In this document: positions 6,501 to 60,516 of the stretch, piece by piece | Layout of the letters: every line of letters starts with the position of its first letter | Position numbering within the stretch: the stretch's first letter is position 1 | NCBI RefSeq assembly: GCF_014193515.1 | Contig: NZ_BLXX01000001.1 | Coordinates: 434,001 to 498,000 of the forward strand | DNA from: Geomonas silvestris | GTDB taxonomy: Bacteria; Desulfobacterota; Desulfuromonadia; Geobacterales; Geobacteraceae | DNA: 64,000 bases | Reading direction: 5' to 3' | The notes under the pieces: model-generated | Told to the model about the DNA's origin: nothing | What the model saw: only the letters and a program-made list of their open reading frames with translations | The model's database searches: none | Made by a program: the position numbers and the translations under genes

Positions 6501-8469
6501 GGTTGTAGCTCACGTTAAGGCTGGTCGACCACCCTGTGGTATTGGTGACGGTTTTGTACCTGCCGGTCGAGCTGCTCGGGGGGGAAGTCGTGAACGGGTA
6601 CGGCAGGTTGTTTTTATCGATGTCGTTGAACCCACCGAAGATGGACAGGGTCTTCAGGGCGTTCTTGCCGGTGGTCGAGTCGTCGAGCAGGTAGATCCCG
6701 TAGGTGGTCACGTTCTGCTGGCCGGCCATGTTGGTATCGTACCCCGCGGCACTCGTGGTCCCGGTCTCGGGACGCAGGTCGTAGGTGCTGTTGCGGACAT
6801 GCATATCGTAGGCGACATAGGCGGGGTCGGATGCGTAGGTGGTATCCGGAGAGTTCCAGTCACCGTCGGTGGCGAGAATCACGAACGACTTGCGGCACGG
6901 GGTCGCGACGTTGCCCGAATCGTAGAAAGGATCGTAGGAGGCGTTCCCCTTGGTGGAAGTCCCCGAGCTCGGCCAGCCGCTGGGCATGCTGGCCACGCTC
7001 CTGATTCCGGTGCTGCTGTTGTCGCTTTGGAAGAACTTTTCCGCAGCGGTCATCGCCTGCCTGGTGTTGGTACCGCCGGTCGCCGGGAGCCTGTTGATGG
7101 CGTTTATGTAGTTGGACTGTGCCTGATTCTTGGTGGTATCGTACGTGGTCCCCCCGGCATTCGGTGCATAGGTTACCCCGTAGTCTGTACTGAAAAACGA
7201 TATCTCCATATCCGCCTTGTTGGCAGTCGAAGTCGGTCCCGTGTAGATGTATTGGATGGTTCCGGTGATGTCCGCGGGAGTGGAGGTCTTCACCCTCGTA
7301 TAGGCGTAGATCGTGTACTGGAGGAACGACCCGGTATTGTTGTTGGAATCGGTGAACAGAGTGTTCTCGTTTACCGTCAAGGTCGAGGCGGTTACCGAGG
7401 CGACGGTGAAGGTACCGTTGTTGCTGATGGAGCGAAACCCGGACGCCACGAGGGTCATGCCGGCGACCCACCCGTCGGAAACGAAACTGCCGCCGTCGGT
7501 CCGGGTGAAGGTCTTAGTCGACGCATTGATCGTCATGGTTTTACTGATGGTCTTCGCCAGAACCTGGCAACCGGCTGCTGCAGGAGTGTAGGTGATCTTG
7601 GTGAAGATGGCGTATTTGCCGGTCTCGGTAGTGCCAAGGTTGCCGTTCACCGTCATCTTGGTGGCTGTCAGCGCCGTAATGGTGAAAGTACCATCGTTGT
7701 TGGTGCTGATCGCGCTGGAGCTCGGCCTCGTGATCTGAACGGTGTCGCCAATTGCATACTTCGTGGTAAAGTCGCCGGAATATCGGGTGAACGACTCGTC
7801 ACTGGCATTAACGTCGACTTTGAGGTTCGAATCCGTGACGGTGGACGTCGTGGCGATGGTGTAGCTGGTACTGCTGATCTGCTCCTGCCCGGTCAGCGAG
7901 GAGGGGCCGGCATCGAACAGGCACTGCGTGGTCGACTCGGCGGCGATGCGGCCGGTGTTGAAGGAGTCGCCGGCTTCATGTTCCAGGACGTCGGTGCTCC
8001 CTGAAGCCACGCGCCCCCCGGTCAATACCTTGCGCAGGATATCCACCTTGTTCGAGGTGAGGTAGTTGAGCAGACGTCCCGAAACGCAACCGGATTGCCC
8101 GATGTGGTCGGTATTGGTGCAACTGGTGTTTTCGGTCCAGAAGCCGTTGGTGGGACTCATCCCGGTTGTCGTGGAGGTGTCGTACTGGTAGTACATGTCC
8201 TGCTTGAAGTACCCGTAGTAGCTGGTGCTCGAATTATAGGTCGAGGAGGTCTGTATGTACGGGTAGTAGTTCATCGACCCGGTGTAGTCGAGGACGAAGT
8301 GGATGTTCGGCTTGGCGTTCTGGGTCAGGTACGGAGGCTGGCAGGCGTAGTTGGCATTGCTCGCCCCGGAGTTTGACGAGCCGATGTTGTTCGCGGCCAG
8401 ACATTGCTGCCCACCGGATACCATCGACAGCGCCCAGACAAGTACCAAAGCAGGGATAATTTTTTTCAT
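3547..8469 (-). CDS. pilY1: PilY1-like pilus-tip protein, cluster 1
   Basis: 1640 residues. Signal peptide MKKIIPALVLVWALSMVSGG, then a von Willebrand A-like region whose metal site reads D-Y-T-G-S-M (about residue 65; usual form DxSxS), with later MIDAS motifs TGGTNTRQAM and ATDGDWN. The C-terminal half is a PilC-type beta-propeller. Just before it an EF-hand-like loop D-A-N-G-D-G-T-K-D fits the calcium site that controls pilus extension and retraction in PilY1. Three copies of a 55-residue module (FTR-x-G-x-F-x-x-D-G-W pattern ending in TVNE/TCAG-like strands) occur near residues 222-277, 317-372 and 1128-1185, the last inside the propeller. The start at 8469 has AAGGTG 5-6 nt upstream. It is the likely tip adhesin and assembly factor. 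Confidence 0.9.
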   Translation of the reverse strand: MKKIIPALVLVWALSMVSGGQQCLAANNIGSSNSGASNANYACQPPYLTQNAKPNIHFVLDYTGSMNYYPYIQTSSTYNSSTSYYGYFKQDMYYQYDTSTTTGMSPTNGFWTENTSCTNTDHIGQSGCVSGRLLNYLTSNKVDILRKVLTGGRVASGSTDVLEHEAGDSFNTGRIAAESTTQCLFDAGPSSLTGQEQISSTSYTIATTSTVTDSNLKVDVNASDESFTRYSGDFTTKYAIGDTVQITRPSSSAISTNNDGTFTITALTATKMTVNGNLGTTETGKYAIFTKITYTPAAAGCQVLAKTISKTMTINASTKTFTRTDGGSFVSDGWVAGMTLVASGFRSISNNGTFTVASVTASTLTVNENTLFTDSNNNTGSFLQYTIYAYTRVKTSTPADITGTIQYIYTGPTSTANKADMEISFFSTDYGVTYAPNAGGTTYDTTKNQAQSNYINAINRLPATGGTNTRQAMTAAEKFFQSDNSSTGIRSVASMPSGWPSSGTSTKGNASYDPFYDSGNVATPCRKSFVILATDGDWNSPDTTYASDPAYVAYDMHVRNSTYDLRPETGTTSAAGYDTNMAGQQNVTTYGIYLLDDSTTGKNALKTLSIFGGFNDIDKNNLPYPFTTSPPSSSTGRYKTVTNTTGWSTSLNVSYNPLTECNDPTRWDSTSTVTCKEWDTSPVPHTNLPYNYFEASDGDQVASSILNAVNDILERISSGTAASILGNNDNAGSQLLQAMFYPIKTFESYTKATWLGELQSYWYFVDPTLKHVTIREDTVNDMKLNLTQDRIVEFNFDGTYTKVRLYNDANGDGTKDSTTFQSEVDPDDVKTLWQAGTKLFCTSEADRVIFTNDPTASSATKISFNDTASSGSTTSKLKSYLDVTSNAGAYDVIKYTRGSDVDTAYRNRTVRYTTSTCNGTSGTFTQPWKLGDIVNSTPKILTEVRLNSYNLSPASGYSDTTYTRFISSSDYNARGLAFVGANDGMLHAFKTGSNFNGTSTNVVAELKNANGTAVSDLGKELWAFVPKNVLPYLQYLSLSNYSHMYFLDSTPIIADVSINVTGDAAINCNSSTYSTCALKTSLSGNSLSYDTSGSGGTSWRTVMIGSMGLGGATRVNPVTTASTSITVNASGKTFTRSSGSFLTDGWTVGKVFTTSGFTNAGNTGPFAITSVTATVITCAGAGLVSETSASGQLYESQAVRVPVTASNGPSTLGYSSVFALDITSPSGSTIGTDSSSYPQLLWEFTDPRLGFTTVTPAIMRVKDPGETPSNPTRRNGKWFAILASGPTGAISGGNFYGNSDLPLTIFVLDLKTGNIVRTFNNLASGHTLNAASSTIHTQVAAMPSFAFGGSLSASGLDADKKSLSLTGNYSDDALYIGFTKADFTQSPAQWNKGGVLRLLTYNDPDPSHWSISPVIDDIGPVTSAVTRLQDITAHNLWLYFGTGRYYSKGDDQTNIQSLFGIKEPCYAASDTFSGSTSTPCTTKIAATSTSSGVSGSTLVDQTTNPVTSLPSGKDGWFINLGTPSGSYAKRVVTDPIASYNGMVTFSTFAPSTDVCSYGGSTSVWEVQYNTGAAPPVSLLGQLLIQLSTGAFQQVDLNKDFTLSNGRETAAFKGTPPKDKPSMTSNANHFPSKRIIHIRER

Positions 8470-8514
8470 ACCGTCACCTTTTCCAAGTTCATTGCTCACT
8501 CGCCAACCCCGCCG

Positions 8515-9339
8515 TTACGGCGCCTTTTCAATCAGATTCTTAAGCTCTGCCGCATCCCGATAACCGGTTACCACAGCGCCATTGGGAAGTACCGTTGCCG
8601 GGGTAGCGACGATATCGTGCCGCCGGGCGTAAATGATAACCTCGTCGACCTCCTTGACGCCGGTCGGCCTCCCGGGGATGTAGATCTCCTGCCCCGCAAG
8701 GGCCTTTTCCAGCATGGTCCGGTTTTTGGAGTCCACGATGGAGCGCGCCTTGTCGTAGGCTCCCGGGTGTGCCGGCAACGGGTAGATGATCAGGTGGATG
8801 GCCAGATCGGGCGCCATCTTTTCGAGCTTCACCAACTCCTGGTACATCTTCGCGCAGTAGGGGCACTCGGGATCGATGAAGACGTACAGGTGCTTATTTC
8901 CTTTTGGATTGCCGATAACCAGGGCGTTTTGCAGCGGCAACGAGGCGGGATCGACCGAGGCGGCCTGGGCCATCCGGTGCGACTGGTCCTCGAACGCGGT
9001 CTGGGTGCGCAGCGTCTCCAGATCGACCACGATCCCCTGCATCAAGCGCTTCTTGGCGTAGTCGATGTAGATGGTCCCCTGTTTGCCGTCTTTCTCCACC
9101 AAGAGTTCAAAGAGCCCGGGCACCGGGGCCTGCCGGACCGCCTTTACCGTCCCCCCCAGCTTTTTAAGCAGCGACTCCGCTTCCTTTTCGGTCAGCTTGT
9201 GGCAGGCAGAGCACTCCCCTTCCCCCTGTGCCTTGGGAAAACCAGAGGCAGTTCCGGCAACAATCAGCAGGAGGACCTGCAAGAGAACGAGACAGAGGAT
9301 GTTCCCTGTCCAGGAACGTTTCACCAACAGATGGGTCAT
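8515..9339 (-). CDS. DsbC/DsbG-like disulfide isomerase with CxxCH motif
   Basis: 274 residues. N-terminal signal peptide or anchor (about residues 12-32), then C-S-A-C-H (CxxCH) near residue 43, a DsbC-like N-terminal domain, and a thioredoxin fold with active site C-P-Y-C (FIDPECPYCAKM) and cis-proline loop ATPATVLP. The role is probably oxidation or isomerisation of disulfides in the periplasm, plausibly in the pilins and PilY1 encoded downstream. CxxCH is the covalent heme-c attachment motif, so the protein may bind heme; the motif could instead be a second dithiol. The start at 9339 has GAGGAG 9 nt upstream. First gene of cluster 1, 45 bp before pilY1. Confidence 0.85.
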   Translation of the reverse strand: MTHLLVKRSWTGNILCLVLLQVLLLIVAGTASGFPKAQGEGECSACHKLTEKEAESLLKKLGGTVKAVRQAPVPGLFELLVEKDGKQGTIYIDYAKKRLMQGIVVDLETLRTQTAFEDQSHRMAQAASVDPASLPLQNALVIGNPKGNKHLYVFIDPECPYCAKMYQELVKLEKMAPDLAIHLIIYPLPAHPGAYDKARSIVDSKNRTMLEKALAGQEIYIPGRPTGVKEVDEVIIYARRHDIVATPATVLPNGAVVTGYRDAAELKNLIEKAP

Positions 9340-9430
9340 CGCGAACGGTCTCCTCGGCCAGCGGGGCTTCTGCAACTCCCTCCGCTGAGGCCTGGTGCTA
9401 AACCTGGGCGGGGAGAGGCTCCTACCTGTC

Positions 9431-9446
9431 AGCAAAGAGTGCACCA
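9431..9446 (-). promoter_or_regulatory. Candidate sigma-54 promoter for dsbC-pilY1 cluster 1
   Basis: On the minus strand the site reads TGGTGCACTCTTTGCT. The -24 TGG and -12 TTGCT match the consensus TGGCACG-N4-TTGCW with correct GG-to-GC spacing; positions 4, 5 and 7 do not match. It lies about 90 bp before the dsbC ATG. An NtrC-type activator is encoded close by at 18572-19954, which makes it plausible but unproven. Confidence 0.45.
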
Positions 9447-35054: not shown

Positions 35055-35419
35055 GATGCTTCACCTCGGCAGCAGGTTCTCGTGCAGGAATAACGAGGGA
35101 CGGCAGACGGGGCCAGCGACAGAAGCGCCAATGGTCCCGACACCTTCCGGGTCCGCCCGTCTGACAGTACCAGCTTTTGCGGCAACAGAGAAAAGAAATT
35201 TAAGGCATACCAGCCCCGCGCGCCACCCCCCTGCGCTTTTTTTGCAGATTTGCGAAAAAGCTCTGGCGTTTTACCCGTGCCCTGAGCTAATATCCCGTTT
35301 ACGCTATGCGTGGAATCTCATGAGCCCCCTTTCCCGCCATGCCGATTCCCCTCCAGCCCTCCGGCAGCCGTTTCCCGAACCTCAAGCGCAGCATGAACCG
35401 ACGCCTGTAAAGGATCCCG
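35055..35419. other. Divergent promoter region before the Cache kinase
   Basis: About 365 bp between the DUF2156 gene (minus) and the kinase (plus). It holds one copy of the TTTTGCA-type palindrome (35239-35259) and a possible -10 TAATAT at about 35288. No good sigma-54 element (TGGAATCTCATGAGCC at 35311 has GG and GC only). Confidence 0.5.
35239..35259. promoter_or_regulatory. TTTTGCA-N4-type palindrome before the kinase gene
   Basis: Reads TTTTTGCA-GATT-TGCGAAAAA, an imperfect copy of the palindrome repeated three times before the sigma-54 promoter at 39210. It is about 170 bp upstream of the kinase gene, which suggests autoregulation by the regulator encoded at 37461-38855. Confidence 0.6.
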
Positions 35420-37384
35420 ATGCAAAGCCTCTTCAGCTACGTGAACAACCTGAAACTGCGCTGGAAGATGATGGTGCTGGTGCTCCCCTTGGTGACCATC
35501 CCTATCTTCATCGTGGGCGGGGTCATCGGCTACATCTCCACCAAACAGGCCTACCTCGGGATCACCCAGACCAGTAAGGACGACCTGGGGCACATGGCCG
35601 ACTTCACGCTGGACCTTTTGAACTCCCACTACCAGCAGTTCCAGGTCTACAAGCAGGACAAAGAGAAGAGCTTCAACCAGGAGCTCGCGACCCTTACCGA
35701 CCTCTCCTACCAGGTGCTCGAGTCGCAGCAGCGCCAGGTGCGCCAGGGACGCATCGACCTCGCCACCGCGCGCCGGGAAGCCCACAACGCCCTGGTCAAG
35801 GTGAACGTCGGGAAAACCGGCTACATCTACGCCATGAACAGCAAGGGCGACCTCATGGTGCACGTCGCCATGGAGGGGAGAAACGTCTTCGACAGCCGCG
35901 ACGAAAGCGGCCGCTACTTCATCCGGGAGATGTGCGAGAAGGCGGTGCGCTCCAAGCCGGGCGAGGTGCTCTACATCGTCTACCCCTGGAAAAACGCGGC
36001 GCTGGGAGACAAGGTCCTGCGCAAGAAGGTCGTTGCCTACCGCTACTTCCCCGAATGGGACTGGATCATCGCGGCCGGCGGCTACCTGGAGGAGACCTAC
36101 GACGACGTCGATTTCGAACGGCGCTCTTTCGCCGCCCTAAAGGAGAAGATCAAGAGCAAGAAGGTGGGGAAGACCGGGTACATCTTCTGCCTGGACACCG
36201 CCGGCAACTTCATGATCCACCCCACCGGGGAAGGGAAGAACTTCCTCAAGGCGACCGACACCAACGGCAACCACTTCATCGAGGAGATGTGCAAGACCAG
36301 GAGCGGCTGGATCCGCTACCCCTGGAAAAATACCGGCGACCCGGCGCCGCGCATGAAGATCGTGCGCTACGAGTACTTCCAGCCCTGGAACTGGATCGTC
36401 GCCGTCGGTTCCTACGAGGACGAGTTCTACGAGGAGGCCAACGCCATCAAGGGGCGCATCATGGAGAGCATGGTGGTGCTCACCATCTTCGTCTCCATCC
36501 TGGCCATGATCATGGTGTTTCTGGCCGCGCGGGTCTTCACCGACCCGATCGCCGACATGATGACCGTGATCCGCAAGGTGAAACAGGGGCGCCTGGACGA
36601 GCGGATCGAGGTAACCACCAACGACGAGTTGGGGGAGCTGGCCACCGCCTTCAACCGGATGACCGCCATCATCAAGCACAACAAGGAACTCGAGGCGAAC
36701 CTGGCGCAGCAGGGAAAGATGGCGTCGCTCGGGGTCCTCTCCTCGGGAGTCGCGCACGAGATCAACAATCCCTTGGGCGTCATCCTGGGCTACGCCGGGT
36801 ACATCGAGGGGAAGATCGGGCCGGACGACCCGAACTACAAGTACATCCACGAGATAAAGCGCGAGAGCAAACGGTGCAAGAAGATCGTCCAGGATCTTCT
36901 GAGTTACGCCCGCACGCCTCAACCGGTGCTCGAGGAGACCAACATCAACCAACTCCTGGACCAGATCGTCGATTTCGCGGCGAACCACACCGACATGCAC
37001 CACGTCTCGGTGCACAAGGAGTTCGATCCCTCGCTCCCGGTCATCATGGTGGACGGCGACCAGTTGCGCCAGGTGGCGATCAACCTGATCCTCAATGCCG
37101 GCGCCGCCATGCAGAAAGGGGGCAAGTTGGTGGTCTCTTCAAGCCTCGGCGTGGACGGCAGCGTAAGCCTCAGGTTCAGCGACAACGGCGGCGGCATCCC
37201 GGCCGAGCACATGGAGAAGATCTTCGAGCCGTTTTTCACCACCAAGGTGAAAGGGACCGGCCTGGGGCTCGCCATCACCCGGCAGATCATCGAGCAGCAC
37301 CACGGCAAGATCGAGATCCGCAGTGTGGTCGGCGAGGGTACCACCGTCGAGGTGCGCCTTCCCATCAACCGCGACGCCTACTGA
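35420..37384 (+). CDS. Double-Cache sensor histidine kinase
   Basis: 654 residues. Membrane segment 16-40, then two tandem Cache-type sensor units, each marked by the same motif: [19 protein letters not shown] (about 134) and [19 protein letters not shown] (about 250). Second membrane segment 350-372, HAMP, HisKA with H-box [15 protein letters not shown] (about 444), ATPase with N-box [11 protein letters not shown]1 DNGGGIP, F-box FEPFFTTK and G2 GTGLGLAI. Cache domains usually bind small metabolites outside the cell (acids, amino acids). It is followed 76 bp later by an NtrC-type regulator, its likely partner. The position upstream of acetate-type transporter genes suggests sensing of a carboxylate, but this is inference. 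Confidence 0.9.
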
Positions 37385-37460
37385 TTCCTGGCGTCACAGC
37401 CGGTACGCCCCCGAACTCAACACCTACAGAACGACTTTCGACCTTACGAGGTAAGCCGAC

Positions 37461-38855
37461 GTGACCGCTCAAAAAAGAATCATGGTAGTCGACAACGAGG
37501 AGGGGCTGTGCCGCATGATGGAGGCGGTACTCTCCGACAACGGTTACGCGGTGACCGCGCACACCCGCTCCTTCGAGGCGGCCGAGTCGTTTCAGGCGGG
37601 GCAGTGGGACCTGGTGGTGACCGACATCAAGATGCCGGGGATGGACGGGCTGGAACTGCTGCAGCGCGTGAAGCAGAAGGACCCCGGCATCCCGGTCATC
37701 ATGGTCACCGCCTACGCGACGGTGGAGATGTCGATCCAGGCCTTGAGGAAAGGGGCCTACGACATGCTCACCAAGCCGTTCGAGCCCGAGGAACTCCTCT
37801 ACCGGGTCAAGAACGCCCTGCAGCACACCAAACTGATCGAGGAAAACCGCGAACTGCGCGAGGAACTGGTGGGGCGGTTCCACTTCGAGAACATCATCGG
37901 CGCCTCGAAGGGGCTCAAGGAAGTTTTGGAGAAGGTGGAAAAGATCACGGTGCGCGACACCTCGGTCCTGGTCACCGGGGAATCGGGAACCGGGAAGGAA
38001 CTGATCGCCCAGGCGATCCACTACAACTCCCCCCGCAAGGACAAGAAGTTCGTGGCGATCAACTGCGGCGCCCTCCCCGCTTCGCTTCTGGAGAGCGAAC
38101 TCTTCGGCTACCGCAAGGGGGCCTTCACCGGCGCGGCCGAGAACCGGCGTGGCCTTCTGGAGACCGCGGACGGCGGAACGCTCTTTCTCGACGAGGTGGG
38201 GAACCTTCCCATGACGGTGCAGAAGACCCTGCTGCGTTTCCTTCAGGAACAGACCTTCAACCGCCTCGGCGACCCAACCCCCACCAAGGTCGACGTCCGG
38301 GTGCTCTCGGCAACCAACGCCGACCTGAAGCTGGCTGTCAAGGCGGGGGAGTTCCGCGAGGACCTCTACTACCGGCTCAACGTGGTGAACATCCAGCTCC
38401 CTCCCTTGAGGGAACGCCGCGACGACATCCCGCTTCTCGCTGCGCACTTCATCAACCTGCAGAATCAGAAGTTCGGCATCCAGGTCCGGGGGCTCGACCA
38501 GCAGGCCCACGAGGCGGCCATCAACTACGGCTGGCCGGGCAACATACGGCAGCTGCGCAACGTCATCGAGGCGTCGATGGCCATGGAAGGCAGCAGCTAC
38601 ATCACGCTGCCGGTGCTCTCCCAGTTCATCGAGGTAGCAACGCCTGAGAGCGAGACGGAACTCCACACCGGCGACGAGGGAGATTACAACAAGGCGCTAT
38701 CCCGCTTTGAGACCGAGTACCTGCGGGCGCTTTTGCGCAAGAACAACGGCAACGTCGAAGCTGCCGCCAAAGAAGCCGGCACCAACATGGCGACCATCTA
38801 CCGAAAGATCAAGAAATACAGCATCAGGAAGGACGAGTATAACGCCGCCGGTTGA
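37461..38855 (+). CDS. NtrC-family sigma-54 response regulator
   Basis: 464 residues from GTG at 37461 with GAGG about 9 nt upstream. Receiver (5-120) with VVDNEEG (second acid of the pair is Asn here), phospho-Asp in VVTDIKMPGMDG and Lys in TKPFEPEE. AAA+ domain (145-380) with Walker A GESGTGKE, intact GAFTGA loop and Walker B TLFLDEVGNL. Fis-type helix-turn-helix at the end (GNVEAAAKEAGTNMATIYRKIKKY). It probably binds the palindromes at 35239, 38923, 38955 and 39094 and activates the sigma-54 promoter at 39210. Confidence 0.92.
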   Translation: MTAQKRIMVVDNEEGLCRMMEAVLSDNGYAVTAHTRSFEAAESFQAGQWDLVVTDIKMPGMDGLELLQRVKQKDPGIPVIMVTAYATVEMSIQALRKGAYDMLTKPFEPEELLYRVKNALQHTKLIEENRELREELVGRFHFENIIGASKGLKEVLEKVEKITVRDTSVLVTGESGTGKELIAQAIHYNSPRKDKKFVAINCGALPASLLESELFGYRKGAFTGAAENRRGLLETADGGTLFLDEVGNLPMTVQKTLLRFLQEQTFNRLGDPTPTKVDVRVLSATNADLKLAVKAGEFREDLYYRLNVVNIQLPPLRERRDDIPLLAAHFINLQNQKFGIQVRGLDQQAHEAAINYGWPGNIRQLRNVIEASMAMEGSSYITLPVLSQFIEVATPESETELHTGDEGDYNKALSRFETEYLRALLRKNNGNVEAAAKEAGTNMATIYRKIKKYSIRKDEYNAAG

Positions 38856-38874
38856 CCAGCCGCACTCCCGCCAA

Positions 38875-38902
38875 AGAGCCCGCGTTCCGGGCTCTTTTTT
38901 TG
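38875..38902 (+). terminator. Rho-independent terminator after the response regulator
   Basis: An 8-bp stem (38875-38882 with 38888-38895, 5-nt loop) followed by seven T residues. It is 20 bp after the regulator stop, so the cysteine-rich protein operon downstream needs its own promoter. Confidence 0.92.
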
Positions 38903-38922
38903 CCCGCCCCAGACTGCCCTCC

Positions 38923-38940
38923 TTTTGCAATGCTGCAAAA
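38923..38940. promoter_or_regulatory. Upstream activator palindrome, site 1
   Basis: Perfect palindrome TTTTGCA-ATGC-TGCAAAA. Its centre is 32 bp from that of site 2 (three helical turns), the usual layout for NtrC-type dimers bound side by side. About 300 bp upstream of the predicted sigma-54 start site. Confidence 0.75.
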
Positions 38941-38954
38941 ATCGTCATTGCGCC

Positions 38955-38972
38955 ATTTGCACATCTGCAAAT
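38955..38972. promoter_or_regulatory. Upstream activator palindrome, site 2
   Basis: Perfect palindrome ATTTGCA-CATC-TGCAAAT with the same 4-bp spacer as site 1. About 270 bp upstream of the predicted start site. Confidence 0.75.
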
Positions 38973-39093
38973 CTCGCCTGAATCAACCCGACGCCCACGA
39001 TAACCTACTGTAACAAAAATAGTTTCTATGATCCCAGCCCTGCCGCCACGCCAGCATACTGCAAGGCATTCTTAGGAAACTCTTCCGGTCAAC

Positions 39094-39111
39094 TTTTGCG
39101 AATTTGCAAAT
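39094..39111. promoter_or_regulatory. Upstream activator palindrome, site 3
   Basis: TTTTGCG-AATT-TGCAAAT, one arm with G for A. Same 4-bp spacer. About 130 bp upstream of the predicted start site, an ideal distance for a sigma-54 enhancer. Confidence 0.7.
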
Positions 39112-39209
39112 TCGCATGAAGCAGGACCTATGCTTTCTGAGCGCTCTCAACCAACCAACCGTACAGAATCAGGGCGCTTTTCCGTGCCACCCCCAACGTT
39201 CTCATCGTT

Positions 39210-39225
39210 TGGTACGGTCGTTGCT
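39210..39225 (+). promoter_or_regulatory. Sigma-54 promoter of the Cys-rich protein operon
   Basis: TGGTACGGTCGTTGCT matches the consensus TGGCACG-N4-TTGCW at all defined positions except one (T for C at position 4). GG-to-GC spacing is exact. It lies 66 bp upstream of the ATG at 39291 and downstream of three activator palindromes. Confidence 0.82.
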
Positions 39226-39290
39226 GATGTAGGCCCGTCACCTTTTTTGGTCAGGTATTTCCGCAGTGGATACAAAGGGGTCGAGGTCTT

Positions 39291-39488
39291 ATGCCCAAAG
39301 ATACCGTCTGCCCTTTTTACGGCATTAACGATGATTACTGCGACGTGGGATGCGGCTACATCTCCCCCCACGACGTGAAGCAGATTATCAGTTTCTGCAG
39401 CTGCCGCCACCAGGAATGCCTGAAGTACCGGGAACTCTCCGACCGATTCCCGATTGCAGCGATGGAATCCGGGCTCTGCGCGGTATGA
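39291..39488 (+). CDS. Small cysteine-rich protein, unknown function
   Basis: 65 residues with seven cysteines (7, 17, 21, 36, 38, 43, 63), including C-x3-C at 17-21 and C-x-C at 36-38, plus His 27 and 40. No signal peptide or membrane segment, so it is probably cytoplasmic and could hold an iron-sulfur cluster or zinc. GAGG lies just upstream of the ATG. It is the first gene behind the sigma-54 promoter at 39210. I do not recognise a named family. It could be a redox sensor or a partner of the membrane proteins that follow. Confidence 0.75.
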   Translation: MPKDTVCPFYGINDDYCDVGCGYISPHDVKQIISFCSCRHQECLKYRELSDRFPIAAMESGLCAV

Positions 39489-39582
39489 CGGTACCGCACG
39501 GGGCGGCTGGTTGCGGCGACGGCCGCACCAGCCCGGCTTCCCACCTCTTGACGTTTTTGTCCTGTGCCCGGGGAGAACGGCG

Positions 39583-39834
39583 ATGAGCGAAAAAGAACTG
39601 GAACTGCTGGCCCGCATCGAAGAACTGGAGAGGCACACCTGGCGCAACAGTGCCATCCTGCGTGCGGTTGCCATGGTGGCCTGCACGGCGTTAGTCGGGA
39701 TCGTGGTGGCCTCCGGCATCGCCGCCGGCGGCCGCGGCAGCCACTGGTCCGGCCCCGCCTGGAACACCATGTGGCTCTACGGCCTCTTCGCGGCCAACGC
39801 GGTATCCATGTTCTGGACCACCCACAGGGAGTAA
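39583..39834 (+). CDS. Small two-helix membrane protein, unknown function
   Basis: 83 residues. Charged, probably coiled-coil N-terminus (MSEKELELLARIEELERHTW), then two membrane segments (about 26-47 and 63-80) joined by a Gly-rich loop. Start supported by GGGGAGA about 8 nt upstream. It lies 94 bp after the cysteine-rich gene and 78 bp before a larger membrane protein on the same strand, so all three are probably one transcript. No family recognised; size and topology resemble small accessory subunits of transporters. Confidence 0.68.
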   Translation: MSEKELELLARIEELERHTWRNSAILRAVAMVACTALVGIVVASGIAAGGRGSHWSGPAWNTMWLYGLFAANAVSMFWTTHRE

Positions 39835-39912
39835 CCCTCTAAGTCCCTCAACGGGGAACATACCGATTCCAGAGACGGCGCCCGAAGGCCCGCACCAGGA
39901 GAAGAACGATCC

Positions 39913-40962
39913 ATGCCGATGAAACTATCGAACGTGATGCTCTTGCTGGTTGTGGTAACCATCTGCGCCGTTTTCTCGTTGCGGATCTTCCAGGGGATCG
40001 ACGAGATGATGGGAGACCAGTATTGGGTGGTCGACACCACCCAGGGAGACCACGGCTGGTACGCCATGGGACTGCTCCCCTGCGTCGCCAAGGTCCCCAA
40101 GGACGTAGTAAAGGCCGCGAACAGCAACCCCGCCGCTCCCGCCAAGTACCTGATCTACGCGCAAAACGGCGACTTCGCCGGCAACACGGTCTACGGCATC
40201 TCCCTGGGAATCCCGCTCATCATGTACTTGATCTGGTTTGCCTGCATCCTCGGGTTCCCGGACCGGGTCGACCCCTATCTCCTGCCGCGGCGGATCTTCA
40301 CCACTACCGTGATCATCATCTGCTCTATCATCGTCAACCTGTTCCTGATGCGGGTAGCCGCCGACTTTGCCCGCGACCCCATGTCGCGTATCGCCAACGT
40401 CGCCGGTACCCAGGCCTCGCTCCTCTTCCACAGTGCAGGAATCTGGTTCGCCATCCTTTTCTCCGCCTTGGGCACCACCAACCACAGCGCCCGCGAGTCG
40501 CGCGCCCCCGACAGCCGCAACTGGCAGACCCAGGCGAACGAGAAATTCAACTGGATGTTCCTGCTTTTGCTCGGCGCGACGCTCCTCGAGGTCTGCCTGG
40601 TGCAGAGCCGGTTGGCGCTGCCCGATGCCGCCTTGGATTACGCACTGTGGCTCATGGCGGTCGTGATCTTCATGCGCATGTTCGGCTTCTCTCCCAAATA
40701 CTGGATAAAACGCGCCCGGGGTATCGCGATTGCGCTCACCGGAACCTTTTGTACCCTCCCCATCTTCTACCTCCTGGAGCGGGCCACCGGAACCCTGGGC
40801 GCCGGCTTCGCGTCCCCCATTCTGGCTGCGACTCACGGCCCGGAGAACGCCAACATAGGCCTGTCGCTCATGCTTTCCATCTACCTCATCTTCTGGATGG
40901 AATTTGCCGCGGCTATCAGGAGAAATGGCCCGGTACGCCCTCTGGCTGGGAGCAGGGGCTGA
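39913..40962 (+). CDS. Polytopic membrane protein, unknown function
   Basis: 349 residues with about eight hydrophobic segments (approximately 7-25, 96-115, 126-148, 165-185, 208-226, 232-250, 265-283, 318-338). Between segments 1 and 2 lies a probable extracytoplasmic loop (DQYWVVDTTQGDHGWYAMGL and following). AGGAGA lies about 10 nt before the ATG. No transporter or enzyme signature is recognised. Third gene of the sigma-54 unit; product may import or sense the signal read by the Cache kinase, but this is only context. Confidence 0.72.
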   Translation: MPMKLSNVMLLLVVVTICAVFSLRIFQGIDEMMGDQYWVVDTTQGDHGWYAMGLLPCVAKVPKDVVKAANSNPAAPAKYLIYAQNGDFAGNTVYGISLGIPLIMYLIWFACILGFPDRVDPYLLPRRIFTTTVIIICSIIVNLFLMRVAADFARDPMSRIANVAGTQASLLFHSAGIWFAILFSALGTTNHSARESRAPDSRNWQTQANEKFNWMFLLLLGATLLEVCLVQSRLALPDAALDYALWLMAVVIFMRMFGFSPKYWIKRARGIAIALTGTFCTLPIFYLLERATGTLGAGFASPILAATHGPENANIGLSLMLSIYLIFWMEFAAAIRRNGPVRPLAGSRG

Positions 40963-41916: not shown

Positions 41917-42228
41917 ATGGCAGAGAAAAAGTACGATTGGTCGGCAATCGCCAAGAACCCCAAATTTGTGGAACTGCACCACAAGAAAACCGCCTTCCTC
42001 TTCGGGTGGTGGATCTTCTCGTGCGTCTACTACTTCCTCCTCCCGATCGGAGCGGCCTACACGCCCGGGATCTTCAAAGTGAAGATCATCGGTGCCGTCA
42101 ACTTCGGCTACCTGTTCGCCCTGTCCCAGTTTTTTGTCTCCTGGGGTTTGGCTCTTTACTATGCACACGTAGCCAACAAGGACTTCGACCGCCTGACCAG
42201 GGAACTGATCGACGAATTACATCTCTAA
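41917..42228 (+). CDS. DUF485 small subunit of an acetate-type symporter
   Basis: 103 residues. It matches DUF485 (YjcH-type): soluble N-terminus, then two membrane segments (about 25-47 and 60-82) with FxFGWWIFSCVYYFLLP and YLFALSQFFVSWGLALYYAHVANKDFDRL. Family members are always next to the ActP-type symporter and assist it. AAAGGAG precedes the ATG by about 9 nt. It is 19 bp before the symporter gene. Confidence 0.92.
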   Translation: MAEKKYDWSAIAKNPKFVELHHKKTAFLFGWWIFSCVYYFLLPIGAAYTPGIFKVKIIGAVNFGYLFALSQFFVSWGLALYYAHVANKDFDRLTRELIDELHL

Positions 42229-42247
42229 CGTAAAGGAGGGATAGGAC

Positions 42248-44242
42248 ATGACCATGAAGAAGATCATCATCGCCGCTTCGCTGGCACTCTCCGTCGCCGC
42301 CGTCGCCTTTGCCGAAGAGAGCAAGGCGCCTGCAGGCGCTCCGGGTGGCACACCGGCCGCGAGCGCACCGGCCGCCTCGACCACCCCCGCAGCCCCCGTC
42401 ATGAAGGTAGAGACTGCCCAGCCCGCCGGCCCCGCGGCCGCGGCTCCGGCCGCTCCCAAGAAAAAGGAGCTCAAGGCTGACCGTACCATCACCATCTCGA
42501 TGTTCGCGATCATCATCGGGATCACCATGGCCGTCGTGGTCTGGGCCGCCAAGCAGACCAAGTCTGCCTCCGACTTCTACGCCGCGGGCGGCGGCATCAC
42601 CGGCACCCAGAACGGTTGGGCCATCGCCGGCGACTACATGTCGGCCGCGTCCTTCCTGGGCATATCCGGCCTGATCTCGCTCTACGGCTACGACGGGTTC
42701 ATGTACTCGGTCGGCTGGCTGGTGGCCTACATCACGGTGCTCCTCATCGTGGCGGAACCCTGCCGCAACGCCGGCAAGTACACCCTGGGCGACATCCTCT
42801 CCTTCAGGACCTCGCCCAAGCCGGTGCGCGCCTTCGCCGCCATCTCCACCGTGTCGGTCTCCACCTTCTACCTCACCGCCCAGATGGTTGGTGCCGGTAA
42901 ACTGATGGCCCTCTTGGTCGGCATCCCCTACAAGACTTCCATCATCGGCGTCGGCATCCTCATGGTAGGCTACGTCGTCTTCGGCGGCATGGTCGCCACC
43001 ACCTGGGTTCAGATCATCAAGGCGGGCCTGCTCATGTCGGGTGCCTTCCTGCTCTCCTTCCTGGTCATGATGAAGGCAGGCTTCAACCCGATCGGCTTCT
43101 TCGACCAGATCGTCGCCAATCCGGACATCCAGGACCACGTCTCCAAGCTGGTCCTCAAAGACGGCGTCATCCTGGCTGGCATGGACGCAGGGCAGCGCTT
43201 CCTGGAGCCGGGCCTCTACCTTAAGAACCCGCTGGACCAGATCTCCCTGGGTATGGCCCTCGTGCTCGGCACCGCCGGCATGCCGCACATCCTGATGCGC
43301 TTTTTCACCGTGCCGACCGCACAGGCTGCCCGCAAGTCCGTCATCATCGCCATGTTCATCATCGGCGGCTTCTACGTGCTGACCACCCTCTTGGGCTTCG
43401 GCGCCGCCATCAACCTGACCCCGCAGGGGATCACCGCCGTCGACCCGGGCGGCAACATGGCAACCCTCATGCTGGCACAGCAGATGGGCGCCGAAATCGC
43501 ACCGGTCCTGGGCGACCTGTTCCTGGCCTTCCTGTGCGCCGTCGCCTTCGCAACCATCCTCGCCGTGGTATCCGGCCTGGTTCTGGCAGCTTCCGCAGCC
43601 ATCGCGCACGACATCTACGTGAACGTGATCAAGGACGGCCACGCCGACCAGCACGAGCAGGTTCGCGCCGCCCGCATCACCTCCTTCGTAGTCGGCGCCT
43701 GCGGCATCGTGATCGGCATCGCAGCCGAGAAGCAGAACGTTGCCCACCTGGTGGCGCTCGCCTTCGCTGTGGCCGCCTCCGGGAACCTCCCGGTCGTGGT
43801 ACTGTCGCTCTTCTGGCGTAAGTTCAACACCGCCGGCGTCATCTCCGGCCTGGTGGTCGGCACCGTCGCATCGATCGCCCTCGTGATGGTCTCCCCGAAC
43901 ATGACCTATCCGAAGGTGGAGGCCGCCAAGGCCCACAAGGTCGTAGTCGCCATGGAGAAGAAGATGGCCTCCCTGGCTCCGGGCGCCACCCTCCCGGAGA
44001 AGGACCTGAAGGCGCTTGAGAAGGCCCGCAAGGACGAGAAGCAGGACGGCACCTCCATCGTCGGCCTGGACAAGCCGCTGTTCACCCTGAAGAACCCGGG
44101 CATCGTCTCGATCCCGCTCGGCTTCATGGCCGCCCTCCTGGGCGCGCTCGCCTTCCCGAGCCGCCGCTCCGAGGAGATGTTCGACGAGGTATACGTCCGT
44201 CAGAACACCGGCCTTGGTATGGCCAAGGCGGTAGAACACTAA
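42248..44242 (+). CDS. actP: Sodium:solute symporter, acetate permease (ActP) type
   Basis: 664 residues, longer than the roughly 550 of typical ActP. Signal-like leader (MTMKKIIIAASLALSVAAVAFA), then an unusual Ala/Pro-rich stretch (about residues 25-78), then the sodium-solute symporter fold with GTQNGWAIAGDYMSAASFLG, the sodium-site region and about 13 membrane segments. Another charged insert of about 55 residues (near 560-615) precedes the last segments. It imports acetate or a similar short monocarboxylate with a cation. Perfect AAAGGAGGGA ribosome site. Coupled with the DUF485 gene; followed by a strong terminator. Confidence 0.9.
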   Translation: MTMKKIIIAASLALSVAAVAFAEESKAPAGAPGGTPAASAPAASTTPAAPVMKVETAQPAGPAAAAPAAPKKKELKADRTITISMFAIIIGITMAVVVWAAKQTKSASDFYAAGGGITGTQNGWAIAGDYMSAASFLGISGLISLYGYDGFMYSVGWLVAYITVLLIVAEPCRNAGKYTLGDILSFRTSPKPVRAFAAISTVSVSTFYLTAQMVGAGKLMALLVGIPYKTSIIGVGILMVGYVVFGGMVATTWVQIIKAGLLMSGAFLLSFLVMMKAGFNPIGFFDQIVANPDIQDHVSKLVLKDGVILAGMDAGQRFLEPGLYLKNPLDQISLGMALVLGTAGMPHILMRFFTVPTAQAARKSVIIAMFIIGGFYVLTTLLGFGAAINLTPQGITAVDPGGNMATLMLAQQMGAEIAPVLGDLFLAFLCAVAFATILAVVSGLVLAASAAIAHDIYVNVIKDGHADQHEQVRAARITSFVVGACGIVIGIAAEKQNVAHLVALAFAVAASGNLPVVVLSLFWRKFNTAGVISGLVVGTVASIALVMVSPNMTYPKVEAAKAHKVVVAMEKKMASLAPGATLPEKDLKALEKARKDEKQDGTSIVGLDKPLFTLKNPGIVSIPLGFMAALLGALAFPSRRSEEMFDEVYVRQNTGLGMAKAVEH

Positions 44243-44268
44243 TAAAAGCTCGTTCGATCTGCTATCAT

Positions 44269-44295
44269 GGGGAAGGGAAACCTTCCCCTTTTTTT
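44269..44295 (+). terminator. Rho-independent terminator after the acetate symporter
   Basis: Perfect 8-bp stem (44269-44276 with 44281-44288), GAAA tetraloop and seven T residues, 27 bp past the symporter stop. Confidence 0.93.
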
Positions 44296-44307
44296 ATCGG
44301 AGCAGTC

Positions 44308-45525
44308 ATGCCCCCGCACTCTCCTCCCCCACCGCTTGCCGAAAGCGACCTGATCCAGGGTCTCATGGACCGGGTGCACGCCTTTTTGCCGCTATTGGAC
44401 CTGTCCGAGATGACCCCGCTCCTCGAAGGAATCCGCGCAACCGCCCAACAGGAACTCGCCCAACTGCGCAGCTTCTCGAGTAGGGAAGCCGATCTCCTGG
44501 GAGCCATACCGGGCACCGGGAGCTACACCGAACTCCTCGCCCTGCACGAGGAACTGAACCACCTGGAGATGGAGCGTTTCCTGCGCTTCTTCTCGGTCCC
44601 CGCCCTGCACGAAAACTGCACCCACTACCGCGACCTCTTGGCCCGCCGGGCCCAGGAGCTGGTGCTCCGCGAGATGCCGACGTGCGCCCCCCTCCCCTTC
44701 GCGCTGATCAGCATGGGGAGCGACGGCCGCGAGGAGCAGACCCTCATCACCGACCAGGATTACCTGATCGTCTACGGCGACGGCGGCGACGACGAAGCCG
44801 ACGCCTGGTTTCGGGACTACGCCCTGATCCTCGTGGAGCGGTTGGCCGAGATCGGCTTCAAGAAGTGCACCGGCGGCATCATGCCCTCCAACGACAACTG
44901 GCGGGGGTCGCTCTCCCAGTGGCAGCGCCGCCTGCTCTCCATCGTGCGCTACGAGTGCGAGGACATGGGGAAGAACCTCATGGACCTGATCGTCATCTCC
45001 GACGCGCGCTACGTGGCCGGAGACCTGGCGCTGGCCGACGAGCTGGTGAATCGGATCCGCTCCCTGGGGCAGGACTACTTCATCGCGCTCTGGGGGATGG
45101 CCAAGGCCGCCACCGAGATGCGCCTCGCCCTCGGTTTCCTGAAACGGATCTGGACCGAGGGGAGCGGCGAGCACAAGGGCGAGTTCAACCTGAAGCTCTT
45201 GGCCTGGGCCCCCTTGGTCATGAACGTGCGCATCCTGGCCATCAACCAGGGGATCCCGGCCACCTCCACGGTGCGGCGCATCGAGCACCTGCAGCGCGAG
45301 AGGAGCCTCTCCCAGGCGACCGCGCAGGGGCTCATCGAGGCCTATCGGATCCTCACCAAGCACCGCATCCTTTTGCAGGTGAAGGTCATCAAGGGGATCC
45401 AAAGCGACGCCTACCACCTGAACCCGTACACCCTGGACAAGGACGAACGCGAGCGGGTGCGCCAGGCCCTTTTGCTCATCGAAGAGCTGCAGAAGATCAT
45501 CCACACCAACTTCTCGATCATGTAG
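44308..45525 (+). CDS. DUF294 nucleotidyltransferase-like signalling protein
   Basis: 405 residues. An N-terminal helical region is followed at about residue 135 by a nucleotidyltransferase fold: SMGSDGREEQTLITDQDYLIVY, with the G-S turn and D-x-D metal-binding acids intact. C-terminal DUF294_C-type helical domain. No CBS or cyclic-nucleotide domain is attached, unlike many family members. Such proteins resemble GlnD and are thought to modify or sense partner proteins. It begins 13 bp after the terminator of the acetate symporter and precedes a second symporter, so it may control one or both. ATCGGAG lies before the ATG. Confidence 0.85.
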   Translation: MPPHSPPPPLAESDLIQGLMDRVHAFLPLLDLSEMTPLLEGIRATAQQELAQLRSFSSREADLLGAIPGTGSYTELLALHEELNHLEMERFLRFFSVPALHENCTHYRDLLARRAQELVLREMPTCAPLPFALISMGSDGREEQTLITDQDYLIVYGDGGDDEADAWFRDYALILVERLAEIGFKKCTGGIMPSNDNWRGSLSQWQRRLLSIVRYECEDMGKNLMDLIVISDARYVAGDLALADELVNRIRSLGQDYFIALWGMAKAATEMRLALGFLKRIWTEGSGEHKGEFNLKLLAWAPLVMNVRILAINQGIPATSTVRRIEHLQRERSLSQATAQGLIEAYRILTKHRILLQVKVIKGIQSDAYHLNPYTLDKDERERVRQALLLIEELQKIIHTNFSIM

Positions 45526-45528
45526 CGA

Positions 45529-45560
45529 GAGCTCCCTTCTGCGGGGAGCCGCTCCTTTTT
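45529..45560 (+). terminator. Possible terminator after the DUF294 gene
   Basis: A 6-7 bp stem (GCTCCC with GGGAGC) followed six bases later by five T residues. Weaker than the others in the window; transcription may read through to the DUF4212 gene. Confidence 0.4.
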
Positions 45561-45633
45561 CGCCTTCACCCGCGCCGGCGCCTGTGCTATGCTGCCCCGC
45601 ACACGTAGGCAGGACACCGACAGGAGGGAGATC

Positions 45634-45957
45634 ATGAGCCGCCAGGACCCGCGCTACCACGTCAACCTGTTCCGCCCCAAAGAGGGACACATGAAGGATG
45701 AGGTTCTCATCATCCTCATCGTCCTCATCGGTTGGGCGGTCGTCACCTTCGGGTTCCAGATCCTTTTGGCGTTCAGCCGCGGCAGGGGGATCGGCGACCT
45801 CCTGACCGGGCTCACCCTGTTCGGGCTCCCGCTGCACTTCTGGTTCACCGGTCAGTTTCTCCCGCTTTGGTTCATCATCCTCTGCCTGGTGTTCAACGTG
45901 TACATCGACCGGATCACCGCCTACCACAGCCGCAAGAGGGATCGCACCTATGAATGA
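45634..45957 (+). CDS. DUF4212 small subunit of a sodium/solute symporter
   Basis: 107 residues. N-terminal RYHVNLFRPKEGHMKDE, two membrane segments (about 22-44 and 60-90) with HFWFTGQFLPLWFIILCLVFNVYIDRI, matching the DUF4212 / symporter small-subunit family. The start at 45634 has AGGAGGGA about 6 nt upstream. It overlaps the next symporter gene by 8 bp, the usual arrangement of this pair. Confidence 0.88.
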   Translation: MSRQDPRYHVNLFRPKEGHMKDEVLIILIVLIGWAVVTFGFQILLAFSRGRGIGDLLTGLTLFGLPLHFWFTGQFLPLWFIILCLVFNVYIDRITAYHSRKRDRTYE

Positions 45958-47470
45958 CTCCCAGTGGACCATCGGCATCGTCATCCTGGTCCTGGTCTCC
46001 TTCATCCTGGTGGGGCTCAAGCAGAAGGCGCGCGAGAGCATGGAGTACGGCTTCGGGGGGCGCTACACGGGACGCATCGGGGGGGGAGCCGCCATCGCCA
46101 GCAACTGGATGAGCGCGGCAAGCCTCATGGGGCTCGCCGGCCTCATCTACCTAAACGGCTACCAGGCGCTCGCCTACGTGGCGGGGTGGACGGGGGGGTA
46201 CGTGCTTTTGCTGGTGCTTTTGGCCAGCCAGATCCGGCGCTTTGGCAAGTTCACCGCCCCGGATTTCGTGGGTGAGCGCTACGGATCGCCGGCGGCGCGC
46301 TTTCTCACCGCCGTCATCTGCATCGCCATCTCGGTGATCTACTGCGTGGCCCAGTTCAAGGGGATCGGGATGATCTTCTCGTTCCTCTTCGGGATCGACT
46401 ACCGGCACGGGGTGATCTACGGCGGGCTCGCGGTGATCTCCTACCTGGTGCTCTCCGGCGCGCTCGGTGTGCCGCGCAACCAGCAGCTTCTCTACTTCGT
46501 GATCATCACCTCTTTCATCGTGCCGCTCATGTGGCTCGCCCACCGGCTCGGGTACTTCTGGCTCCTCCCCCAGTTCAGCTACGGCGAGGCGGTGGGCGAT
46601 CTGGCCCGCCAGTATAGAATCGACTTCGCCGCCCCCTTTAACTCGGGGAGCGTCTACGAGTGGTGCGCCCTCTGTTTCACCCTCATGGTGGGGACCGCGG
46701 GCCTTCCCCACGTGCTGTCGCGCTTCTACACGGTTCCCAACCTGCGCGACGCGCGCTGGAGCGTGGTCTGGGGGCTCTTCTTCATCGCGCTCGTCTACTG
46801 GTCGGCGCCGGCCTATGCGGTCTTCGGCAAGCTGATCGAGGCGCGCATGGGGCACGTGCTCCCGCCGGCGGCGGCCCGCAGCATGGCAGACATCATCGTC
46901 TTGAAGACCGCGGTCCTCTCCGGTGTGCCGGGATGGCTTGCGGGTATCCTGGCGGCCGGCGCGCTCTCCGCGGCCTTCTTCACCGTGGCAGGGCTCCTGA
47001 TGACCGGGGCCGCCTCGGTCTCCTTCGATCTCTACTACCGGGTCTTCCACCCCCAGGCGAGCGAACTCTCCCGCATGAAGGTGGCCAAGGGCGCCACCCT
47101 GGCCCTTGGCGGGATCGTGCTCCTTTTGGCGCTCAACCCGCCGGGGCTCATCGCGGAGATCACCGCAGTCGCCTTTGCCCTGGCCGGCAACACCATCTTC
47201 CCCTTGCTGCTCCTGGGGATCTGGTGGGGCCGCGCCAACGACGACGGCGCCGTGGCCGGCATGCTGGTCGGCGTGGTCTGCACCTTCGCCCAGCCGCTCT
47301 TCGGCTCGCTCTCCCCCACGGTGGCCGCACTCTTCCCGCTCACCTCCTCGGCCCTGTGCGGCGCCCCTCTGGTGATCCTGGTGATGATCGCGGTAAGCCT
47401 CGCCACGCCACCCCCGCCGGAGCAGATGCGGCGCTTCCTGGCGAGCGAGGTGCACGGGCACCTGGGCTGA
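45950..47470 (+). CDS. Sodium/solute symporter (VC_2705-like, DUF4212-linked)
   Basis: 506 residues with about 13 membrane segments of the sodium-solute symporter family (IASNWMSAASLMGLAGLIYLNGY near residue 48, GTAGLPHVLSRFYTVP near 250). The DUF4212 partner upstream defines the subfamily; substrates are probably small organic acids. It is coupled to the small subunit by an 8-bp overlap. A repeat element and a degenerate DUF294-like gene follow. Confidence 0.9.
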   Translation: MNDSQWTIGIVILVLVSFILVGLKQKARESMEYGFGGRYTGRIGGGAAIASNWMSAASLMGLAGLIYLNGYQALAYVAGWTGGYVLLLVLLASQIRRFGKFTAPDFVGERYGSPAARFLTAVICIAISVIYCVAQFKGIGMIFSFLFGIDYRHGVIYGGLAVISYLVLSGALGVPRNQQLLYFVIITSFIVPLMWLAHRLGYFWLLPQFSYGEAVGDLARQYRIDFAAPFNSGSVYEWCALCFTLMVGTAGLPHVLSRFYTVPNLRDARWSVVWGLFFIALVYWSAPAYAVFGKLIEARMGHVLPPAAARSMADIIVLKTAVLSGVPGWLAGILAAGALSAAFFTVAGLLMTGAASVSFDLYYRVFHPQASELSRMKVAKGATLALGGIVLLLALNPPGLIAEITAVAFALAGNTIFPLLLLGIWWGRANDDGAVAGMLVGVVCTFAQPLFGSLSPTVAALFPLTSSALCGAPLVILVMIAVSLATPPPPEQMRRFLASEVHGHLG

Positions 47471-53296: not shown

Positions 53297-53618
53297 GCGG
53301 TACCTCGACTGACTGCCAAAGAGCGGAAGGAGGCCCGAAAACCGGCTCTCAGGACTCCCCCACGTTCTCATGTGTTCCTTCAAAGTAGCACAAACTTCAC
53401 TGGTATACAACCTGCACCTTTCTTACAAAAGCAGTCATCCTATTAGAACCATTGGTACTTCAGTCGTCCGAAGGTCTTTCCGGGTATTCCCCGAGGAGTA
53501 CATTGGAACCGCACCGGGACCAGGAGCCCCGCACAAGCCACCTGCGCAAGAAAGGCCATGATTTGTCCGGGAGAATCGGCTATACTGCCGCCGCGGCCAT
53601 CTCCGCCCAGGACGTCCC
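53297..53618. other. Divergent promoter region, PAS kinase / ACT regulator
   Basis: 322 bp between the PAS kinase (minus) and the ACT-sigma-54 regulator (plus). A possible minus-strand sigma-70 element (TTTTGT, 17 bp, TATACC) lies at about 53409-53437. No strong repeats or riboswitch. Confidence 0.4.
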
Positions 53619-60500: not shown

Positions 60501-60516
60501 AGCATGTGGCGTGCCA
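60501..60516 (-). promoter_or_regulatory. Sigma-54 promoter of glnB-amt
   Basis: On the minus strand TGGCACGCCACATGCT matches TGGCACG-N4-TTGCW at every defined position but one (A for T). It is 51 bp upstream of the glnB ATG. Nitrogen-limitation control by NtrC is expected, from established knowledge of this operon type. Confidence 0.88.

Follow-up and report, generated by a model that had tools for sequence, protein, structure and literature searches.

What does the repeated palindrome TTTTGCA-N4-TGCAAAA control, which protein reads it, and to which signal does that protein answer? These questions are raised by a sensor kinase gene and a regulator gene in a stretch of 64,000 nucleotides from Geomonas silvestris (contig NZ_BLXX01000001.1, positions 434,001 to 498,000; hereafter the window). 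A first-pass annotation, made from the letters of the window, had described a complete circuit of sensor, activator, operators, promoter and target at this locus. Judged from the sequences of the window and of its relatives, the locus very probably encodes an AtoSC-like two-component, sigma-54-dependent circuit for small monocarboxylates, and the circuit probably turns on acid-uptake genes along with a three-gene set.

All four annotated palindromes were recovered in the window (up to 3 mismatches to TTTTGCA-N4-TGCAAAA; Table 1), with 1, 0, 2 and 2 mismatches in order of position; the first starts at 35240, one base after the annotated 35239, and the step of 32 base pairs (bp) from 38923 to 38955 was correct. 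Because 4 matches were also reached in 2 of 100 dinucleotide shuffles of the window (mean 0.97), the count is marginal by itself; this statistic of the window was too weak to decide, and therefore relatives were needed. Searched for across all 5.1 Mb of the genome at up to 1 mismatch, the core TTTGCA-N4-TGCAAA occurred at 9 places, four in the window, one at C1:622430, three at C7:31516-31666 and one at C3:71402, with sigma-54 sites accompanying the motifs at C1:622430 and C7:31516-31666; the lone motif at C3:71402, which has no sigma-54 site, was taken as chance and rejected as an operator. At up to 2 mismatches, 93 places were found genome-wide against 68 for the reversed pattern, so lone sites with 2 mismatches carry little meaning. 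Taken by themselves, this ratio and the shuffles speak for a reading of the palindromes as chance sequence or a structural element.

Conservation was assessed in a family sample of 34 loci (the window and 33 relatives' loci with a regulator orthologue), whose relatedness inflates the counts. The annotation had staked its reading on the presence of the motif upstream of orthologous operons, and motif and sigma-54 promoter were found there in 34 of 34 loci. Three palindromes (up to 2 mismatches) were present in 29 loci and two in 5, all in the 700 bp that follow the regulator, with none in any locus for the reversed control. In all 34, the sigma-54 site that scored best over the following 1000 bp was strong, and it lay 91–125 bp past the last recognised palindrome in 32 loci; in the other two, the proximal palindrome had more than 2 mismatches. 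In the gap alignment, where gaps count against identity, mean column identity was 0.935 for the 36 half-site columns, 0.49 for the 12 spacer columns, 0.44 for the 306 other columns, and 0.956 for the sigma-54 core columns. Half-sites that are conserved while their own spacers drift are, at the level of sequence, the signature of operators, and together with the conserved distance to the sigma-54 site and the recurrence of the same arrangement ahead of unrelated genes (below), they leave chance or a structural element with a vanishingly small probability. A complete kinase gene lay 18–962 bp upstream of the regulator in 29 of the loci, and in one the contig begins inside the regulator. As far as sequence can tell, the sensor-regulator pair, its docking sites and the special promoter are conserved across the Geobacter group. 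Paired motifs were also looked for in viral contigs, with 3 matches; the open reading frames of L260 and the first 3 kb of L261 were phage-like by eye, and this lead was set aside.

The near-consensus sigma-54 promoter of the annotation was borne out, TGGTACGGTCGTTGCT (39210-39225) being the only match to TGGYAYRNNNNTTGCW in the window without mismatch; with up to 1 mismatch, 4 matches were found against 1.95 expected. The three further sites with 1 mismatch (9431-9446, 53401-53416 and 60501-60516) are about the number given by chance. Under a sigma-54 score whose weights and thresholds were devised for this analysis, the target promoter scored 20.9; as a null, the score used for the gene 3 loci described below was reached by 10 of 160 coding stretches, each 400 bp long. 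Repeated upstream operators combined with a -24/-12 promoter carrying GG-N10-GC form the layout of NtrC-type control, and both are present here. A stem followed by a T run is located between the regulator and the first downstream palindrome, and because of it the genes past the regulator probably need a promoter of their own; this stem was not among the matches of a terminator pattern scan.

Table 1. Features of the circuit in the window (aa, amino acids; TM, transmembrane; HTH, helix-turn-helix)
Feature	Position	Strand	Remarks
Palindromic operator upstream of kinase	35240..35257	+	1 mismatch
Sigma-70-like promoter of kinase-regulator operon, TGGCGT, 18 bp, TAATAT	35264..35293	+	read by eye from stacked upstream regions of 25 loci
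Sensor histidine kinase	35420..37384	+	Pfam dCache_2, HAMP, HisKA, HATPase_c; predicted TM segments flank dCache_2 (hydropathy)
NtrC-type response regulator	37461..38855	+	REC PF00072, sigma-54 AAA+ PF00158 with GAFTGA, HTH_8 PF02954, above cut-off
Likely intrinsic terminator after regulator gene	38873..38901	+	10-pair stem then T run; fold -15.9 kcal/mol, z -3.36
Operator 1, distal	38923..38940	+	exact palindrome; half-sites conserved in alignment of 34 loci
Operator 2, distal	38955..38972	+	32 bp from operator 1; half-sites conserved in 34 loci
Operator, proximal	39094..39111	+	half-sites conserved in 34 loci
Sigma-54 promoter TGGTACG-N4-TTGCT	39210..39225	+	expected start near 39236; top-scoring site of next 1000 bp in 34/34 loci
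Target gene 1, 65-aa cysteine-rich protein	39291..39488	+	no known family
Target gene 2, 83-aa protein	39583..39834	+	one predicted TM segment; no known family
Target gene 3, 349-aa polytopic membrane protein	39913..40962	+	about eight hydrophobic segments; no known family

The regulator has the intact GAFTGA loop and Fis-type HTH that had been annotated (by Pfam, with GAFTGA present in 48 of 48 orthologues). At E ≤ 1e-120, one match each was found in 34 of 48 family genomes (75–100% identical, two partial), and the next-scoring match within the source genome was 43% identical. The recognition helix AGxNMATIYRKx[KR]KY was exact in 33 of the 48 orthologues, the remaining 15 all having N[MV]xTxYRK, and MATIYRK was present in none of 23 loci for other enhancer-binding proteins (EBPs) from six genomes. 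From synteny, co-occurrence and this conserved helix, we infer, strongly, that the motif is bound by the neighbouring regulator.

Downstream of the promoter, the genes for proteins of 65, 83 and 349 aa were present in 32 of the 33 other loci, gene 3 being partial in one (L066), and the contig of the last (L056) ends earlier. Gene 3 was further scanned for in named genome contigs, where the best 80 of 92 loci, which overlap the 34 family loci in part, include Geomonas, Citrifermentans, Geotalea, Trichlorobacter and Pelotalea. Among the 76 of these best 80 with at least 1100 bp upstream, the motif (up to 1 mismatch) was found in 72 (reversed control, 0), a sigma-54 site in 73, and both in 71; where the locus held no regulator, again among the best 80 of 92, both were found in 36 of 41. 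The three target proteins had no match above cut-off in Pfam or NCBIfam and none in PHROG, the 349-aa protein had no match among solved structures at E up to 10, and AlphaFold2 models of it were poor, with a mean pLDDT (predicted local distance difference test) of 44.5 from 17 sequences and 50.8 from 46. An acetate-permease cluster starts farther downstream at 41917, and was rejected as a direct target, being preceded by a 954-bp gap without the motif, and as a conserved one, being downstream of the operon only in the source genus and in L051, from another genus; the other family loci examined, some of them short, showed no such cluster downstream, and parts of it lie upstream in L060, L061 and L066. 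The stretch 41917-47470 encodes a DUF485 protein, an ActP-like sodium/solute symporter, a DUF294 nucleotidyltransferase and a second SSF symporter, with no motif ahead.

Two other promoters of the source genome carry the same arrangement. An MFS transporter (L002), which passes the cut-off of the NCBIfam model for SfMCT, an L-lactate transporter (407 bits against 320), has three palindromes with 1 mismatch each and a sigma-54 site ahead of it; a GSU0071-family gene (L001; 153 bits, cut-off 99) has two palindromes, one with 1 mismatch and one with 2, and likewise a sigma-54 site. For the lactate transporter, 30 of 32 family matches were examined, 28 of them in regulator-bearing genomes; in these, at least 2 motifs with up to 2 mismatches were found in 28 of 28 (control with at least 1, 2 of 28), a motif with up to 1 mismatch in 27 (control, 0), and a sigma-54 site in 27. 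In the two genomes without a regulator match, the motif was present in both and a sigma-54 site in one. The AceTr acetate transporter (AceTr_1 family call, 142 bits, cut-off 50) had no match in the source genome; in relatives, all 17 promoters examined carried at least 2 motifs at up to 2 mismatches (control, 0 of 17) and a sigma-54 site, and 16 of them a motif at up to 1 mismatch. Of six distant AceTr homologues (44–52% identical), from genomes without the regulator, none had a motif and one had a sigma-54-like site. The sequences thus describe a small regulon of more than one locus. The circuit drawn in the first-pass annotation is supported by the 34 family loci, by co-occurrence and by these further marked promoters; it had to be redrawn in that the kinase-side site lacks sigma-54, the target is a three-gene operon, and the whole is a regulon, not a single locus. 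Beside the lactate transporter of L002, a PAS histidine kinase gene (6835-9381) is divergent from it, and one relative's lactate transporter (G014:C1:1322944-1323660) matches residues 195-432 only, as if truncated.

Across 141 genomes of the order, gene 3 was found in 105 (E ≤ 1e-50) and the regulator in 101 (E ≤ 1e-140), with both in 96, gene 3 alone in 9, the regulator alone in 5 and neither in 31 (Fisher test 4.7e-18, a statistic that ignores relatedness). Exact core motifs numbered 252 in the 101 regulator-bearing genomes, 7 of which had none, against 9 for the reversed control; the 31 genomes that lack both genes had 18, against 3.

A number of observations count against the proposed circuit. 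In 4 of the 34 family loci, all from genus g6, the kinase does not adjoin the regulator and is farther off, cut by the fetched stretch. Relatives' GSU0071-family loci L156, L158 and L161 have the motif but no sigma-54 site reaching 18.4, the threshold used. In all 38 kinases compared, the first of two ligand-stacking Trp residues (below) is replaced by Phe or Tyr. Besides the 9 genomes with gene 3 and no regulator, one or more exact motifs occur in 12 of the 31 that lack both genes; three of these 12, G035, G036 and G086, hold 3, 1 and 5, their best regulator matches being 42–43% identical, and the lactate-transporter promoters of G035 and G036 retain the motif. Assembly gaps might lie behind the missing regulator in G035 (90% complete) and G086 (94%), and hardly in G036 (99%). 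Finally, more distant families yielded 15 regulator loci, and 11 of these, two of them short contig ends, lacked the motif (up to 1 mismatch).

Motifs that persist without a regulator match, the lack of motifs at most distant regulator loci, and the 31 other EBP-like matches in the source genome (E ≤ 1e-70) all favour a variant in which the circuit is real, the palindromes are bound by another EBP of that genome, and the neighbouring pair regulates something else. This variant is improbable, as the motif adjoins the regulator in every family locus, regulator and gene 3 co-occur, and the recognition helix is common to the orthologues and absent from the other EBP loci. Of the four distant loci that do have the motif, three bear on the same point: in these, all of genus g27 (to which a record labelled Trichlorobacter lovleyi belongs), it stands at the lactate transporter, about 1–3 kb from the kinase gene, so that the pair is near a motif-bearing lactate transporter instead. 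In the fourth locus (L243), a copy of gene 1, the 65-aa gene, at 5038-5214 has the motif and a sigma-54 site beside the regulator, and gene 3 is on another contig.

On the kinase side, 25 of the 29 loci with a complete kinase gene have a palindrome (up to 2 mismatches) in the 300 bp ahead of it, against none of 29 for the reversed pattern; a conserved sigma-70-like promoter, read by eye, follows the palindrome after a few bases. No strong sigma-54 site was found near it (best score 14.5 in the window and at most 17.0 in the 29 loci), and for both reasons this palindrome probably serves autoregulation of another type than the sigma-54 control of the target.

Solved structures matching the sensor domain at E ≤ 1e-4 were four Cache chemoreceptors (4K08, 2QHK, 4EXO and 5G4Y). 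In an excerpt of PMC3831638, the acetate contacts of Adeh_3718 (4K08) are Tyr94, Trp96, His107, Tyr147, Trp149 and Lys160, and an excerpt of PMC5062169 gives glycolate, acetate, propionate and pyruvate as ligands of PscD (5G4Y), with equivalent residues. In each of the 38 kinases compared, the two Tyr, the His, a Lys and the second Trp are retained in both Cache modules; the Lys of the distal module was picked by eye from two neighbours, one of which is invariant. The kinase probably senses small organic acids, to judge by these residues and by the target genes. A different signal, such as carboxylate starvation or another small molecule, with the acid-transporter genes as part of a wider response, is rather unlikely: the main conserved target has no known family or function, and the motif also stands ahead of a GSU0071-family gene, but in both modules the pocket residues agree with those of acetate and propionate binders, and motif and promoter recur at two unrelated monocarboxylate transporters. 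The three-gene operon is probably tied to monocarboxylate use; that it is a new membrane system, found throughout the Geobacter order, which takes up or handles acetate and other small monocarboxylates under the control of this circuit together with known lactate and acetate transporters, is a tentative proposal that we hold somewhat doubtful.

For the monocarboxylate circuit, the following sequence of events is proposed. The dCache kinase would detect a periplasmic C2-C3 carboxylate (acetate, propionate, pyruvate or lactate), as suggested by the conserved pocket residues and the target genes, and would phosphorylate the adjoining NtrC-type regulator, as suggested by the gene pairing. The regulator would then bind the conserved palindromes, two of them spaced by about three helical turns and a third closer to the promoter, and its GAFTGA AAA+ domain would activate sigma-54 polymerase at the conserved promoter, leading to transcription of the three-gene operon (39291-40962). 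The same regulator would drive the SfMCT-type L-lactate transporter and the GSU0071-family gene in the source genome, and the AceTr acetate transporter in relatives, while the operator beside the sigma-70-like promoter would adjust expression of the kinase-regulator operon, up or down.

For the regulator, present in 101 of the order's 141 genomes, an operator, a promoter and a class of ligand can now be put to the test, and attention is drawn to a membrane operon of high conservation and no known family that is probably linked to monocarboxylate use. Acetate and lactate serve Geobacter-type metal reducers as electron donors; acetate is a primary donor in soils and sediments, and lactate appears in the media of the same paper (PMC2725144, in excerpt). 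Among titles and abstract openings of the open-licence literature, no description of the motif or regulon was recognised. PscD (5G4Y/5G4Z) and Adeh_3718 (4K08) share the four conserved hydrogen-bonding residues, but are single-Cache chemoreceptors, whereas here a tandem Cache is carried by a histidine kinase, with Phe/Tyr for one of the two stacking Trp. By its description in excerpts of PMC3333781 and PMC4641369, DVU3023 of Desulfovibrio vulgaris is likewise a sigma-54 response regulator, with lactate permeases among its targets; unlike here, the targets also include lactate-pyruvate oxidation genes. The layout is the same as that of AtoS-AtoC/atoDAEB of E. coli MG1655, which has a kinase, a regulator, TGCA-containing inverted sites, a sigma-54-like promoter and a target operon that holds a short-chain fatty acid transporter; AtoC targets also include yjcH, tied to acetate transport (PMC3118216, in excerpt). 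Among NCBIfam models, AtoS and AtoC fitted the two proteins here best, with equivalog cut-offs missed (AtoC 450.6 of 714 bits, AtoS 247.2 of 646 bits); the regulator is 41% identical to AtoC, and the kinase resembles AtoS in the catalytic half only. The recognition helix differs from that of AtoC, whose site is given in the same excerpt as 20 bp against TTTTGCA-N4-TGCAAAA here, and the target genes differ from those of AtoSC. By analogy, the circuit would work like AtoSC, yet is not classed as AtoSC.

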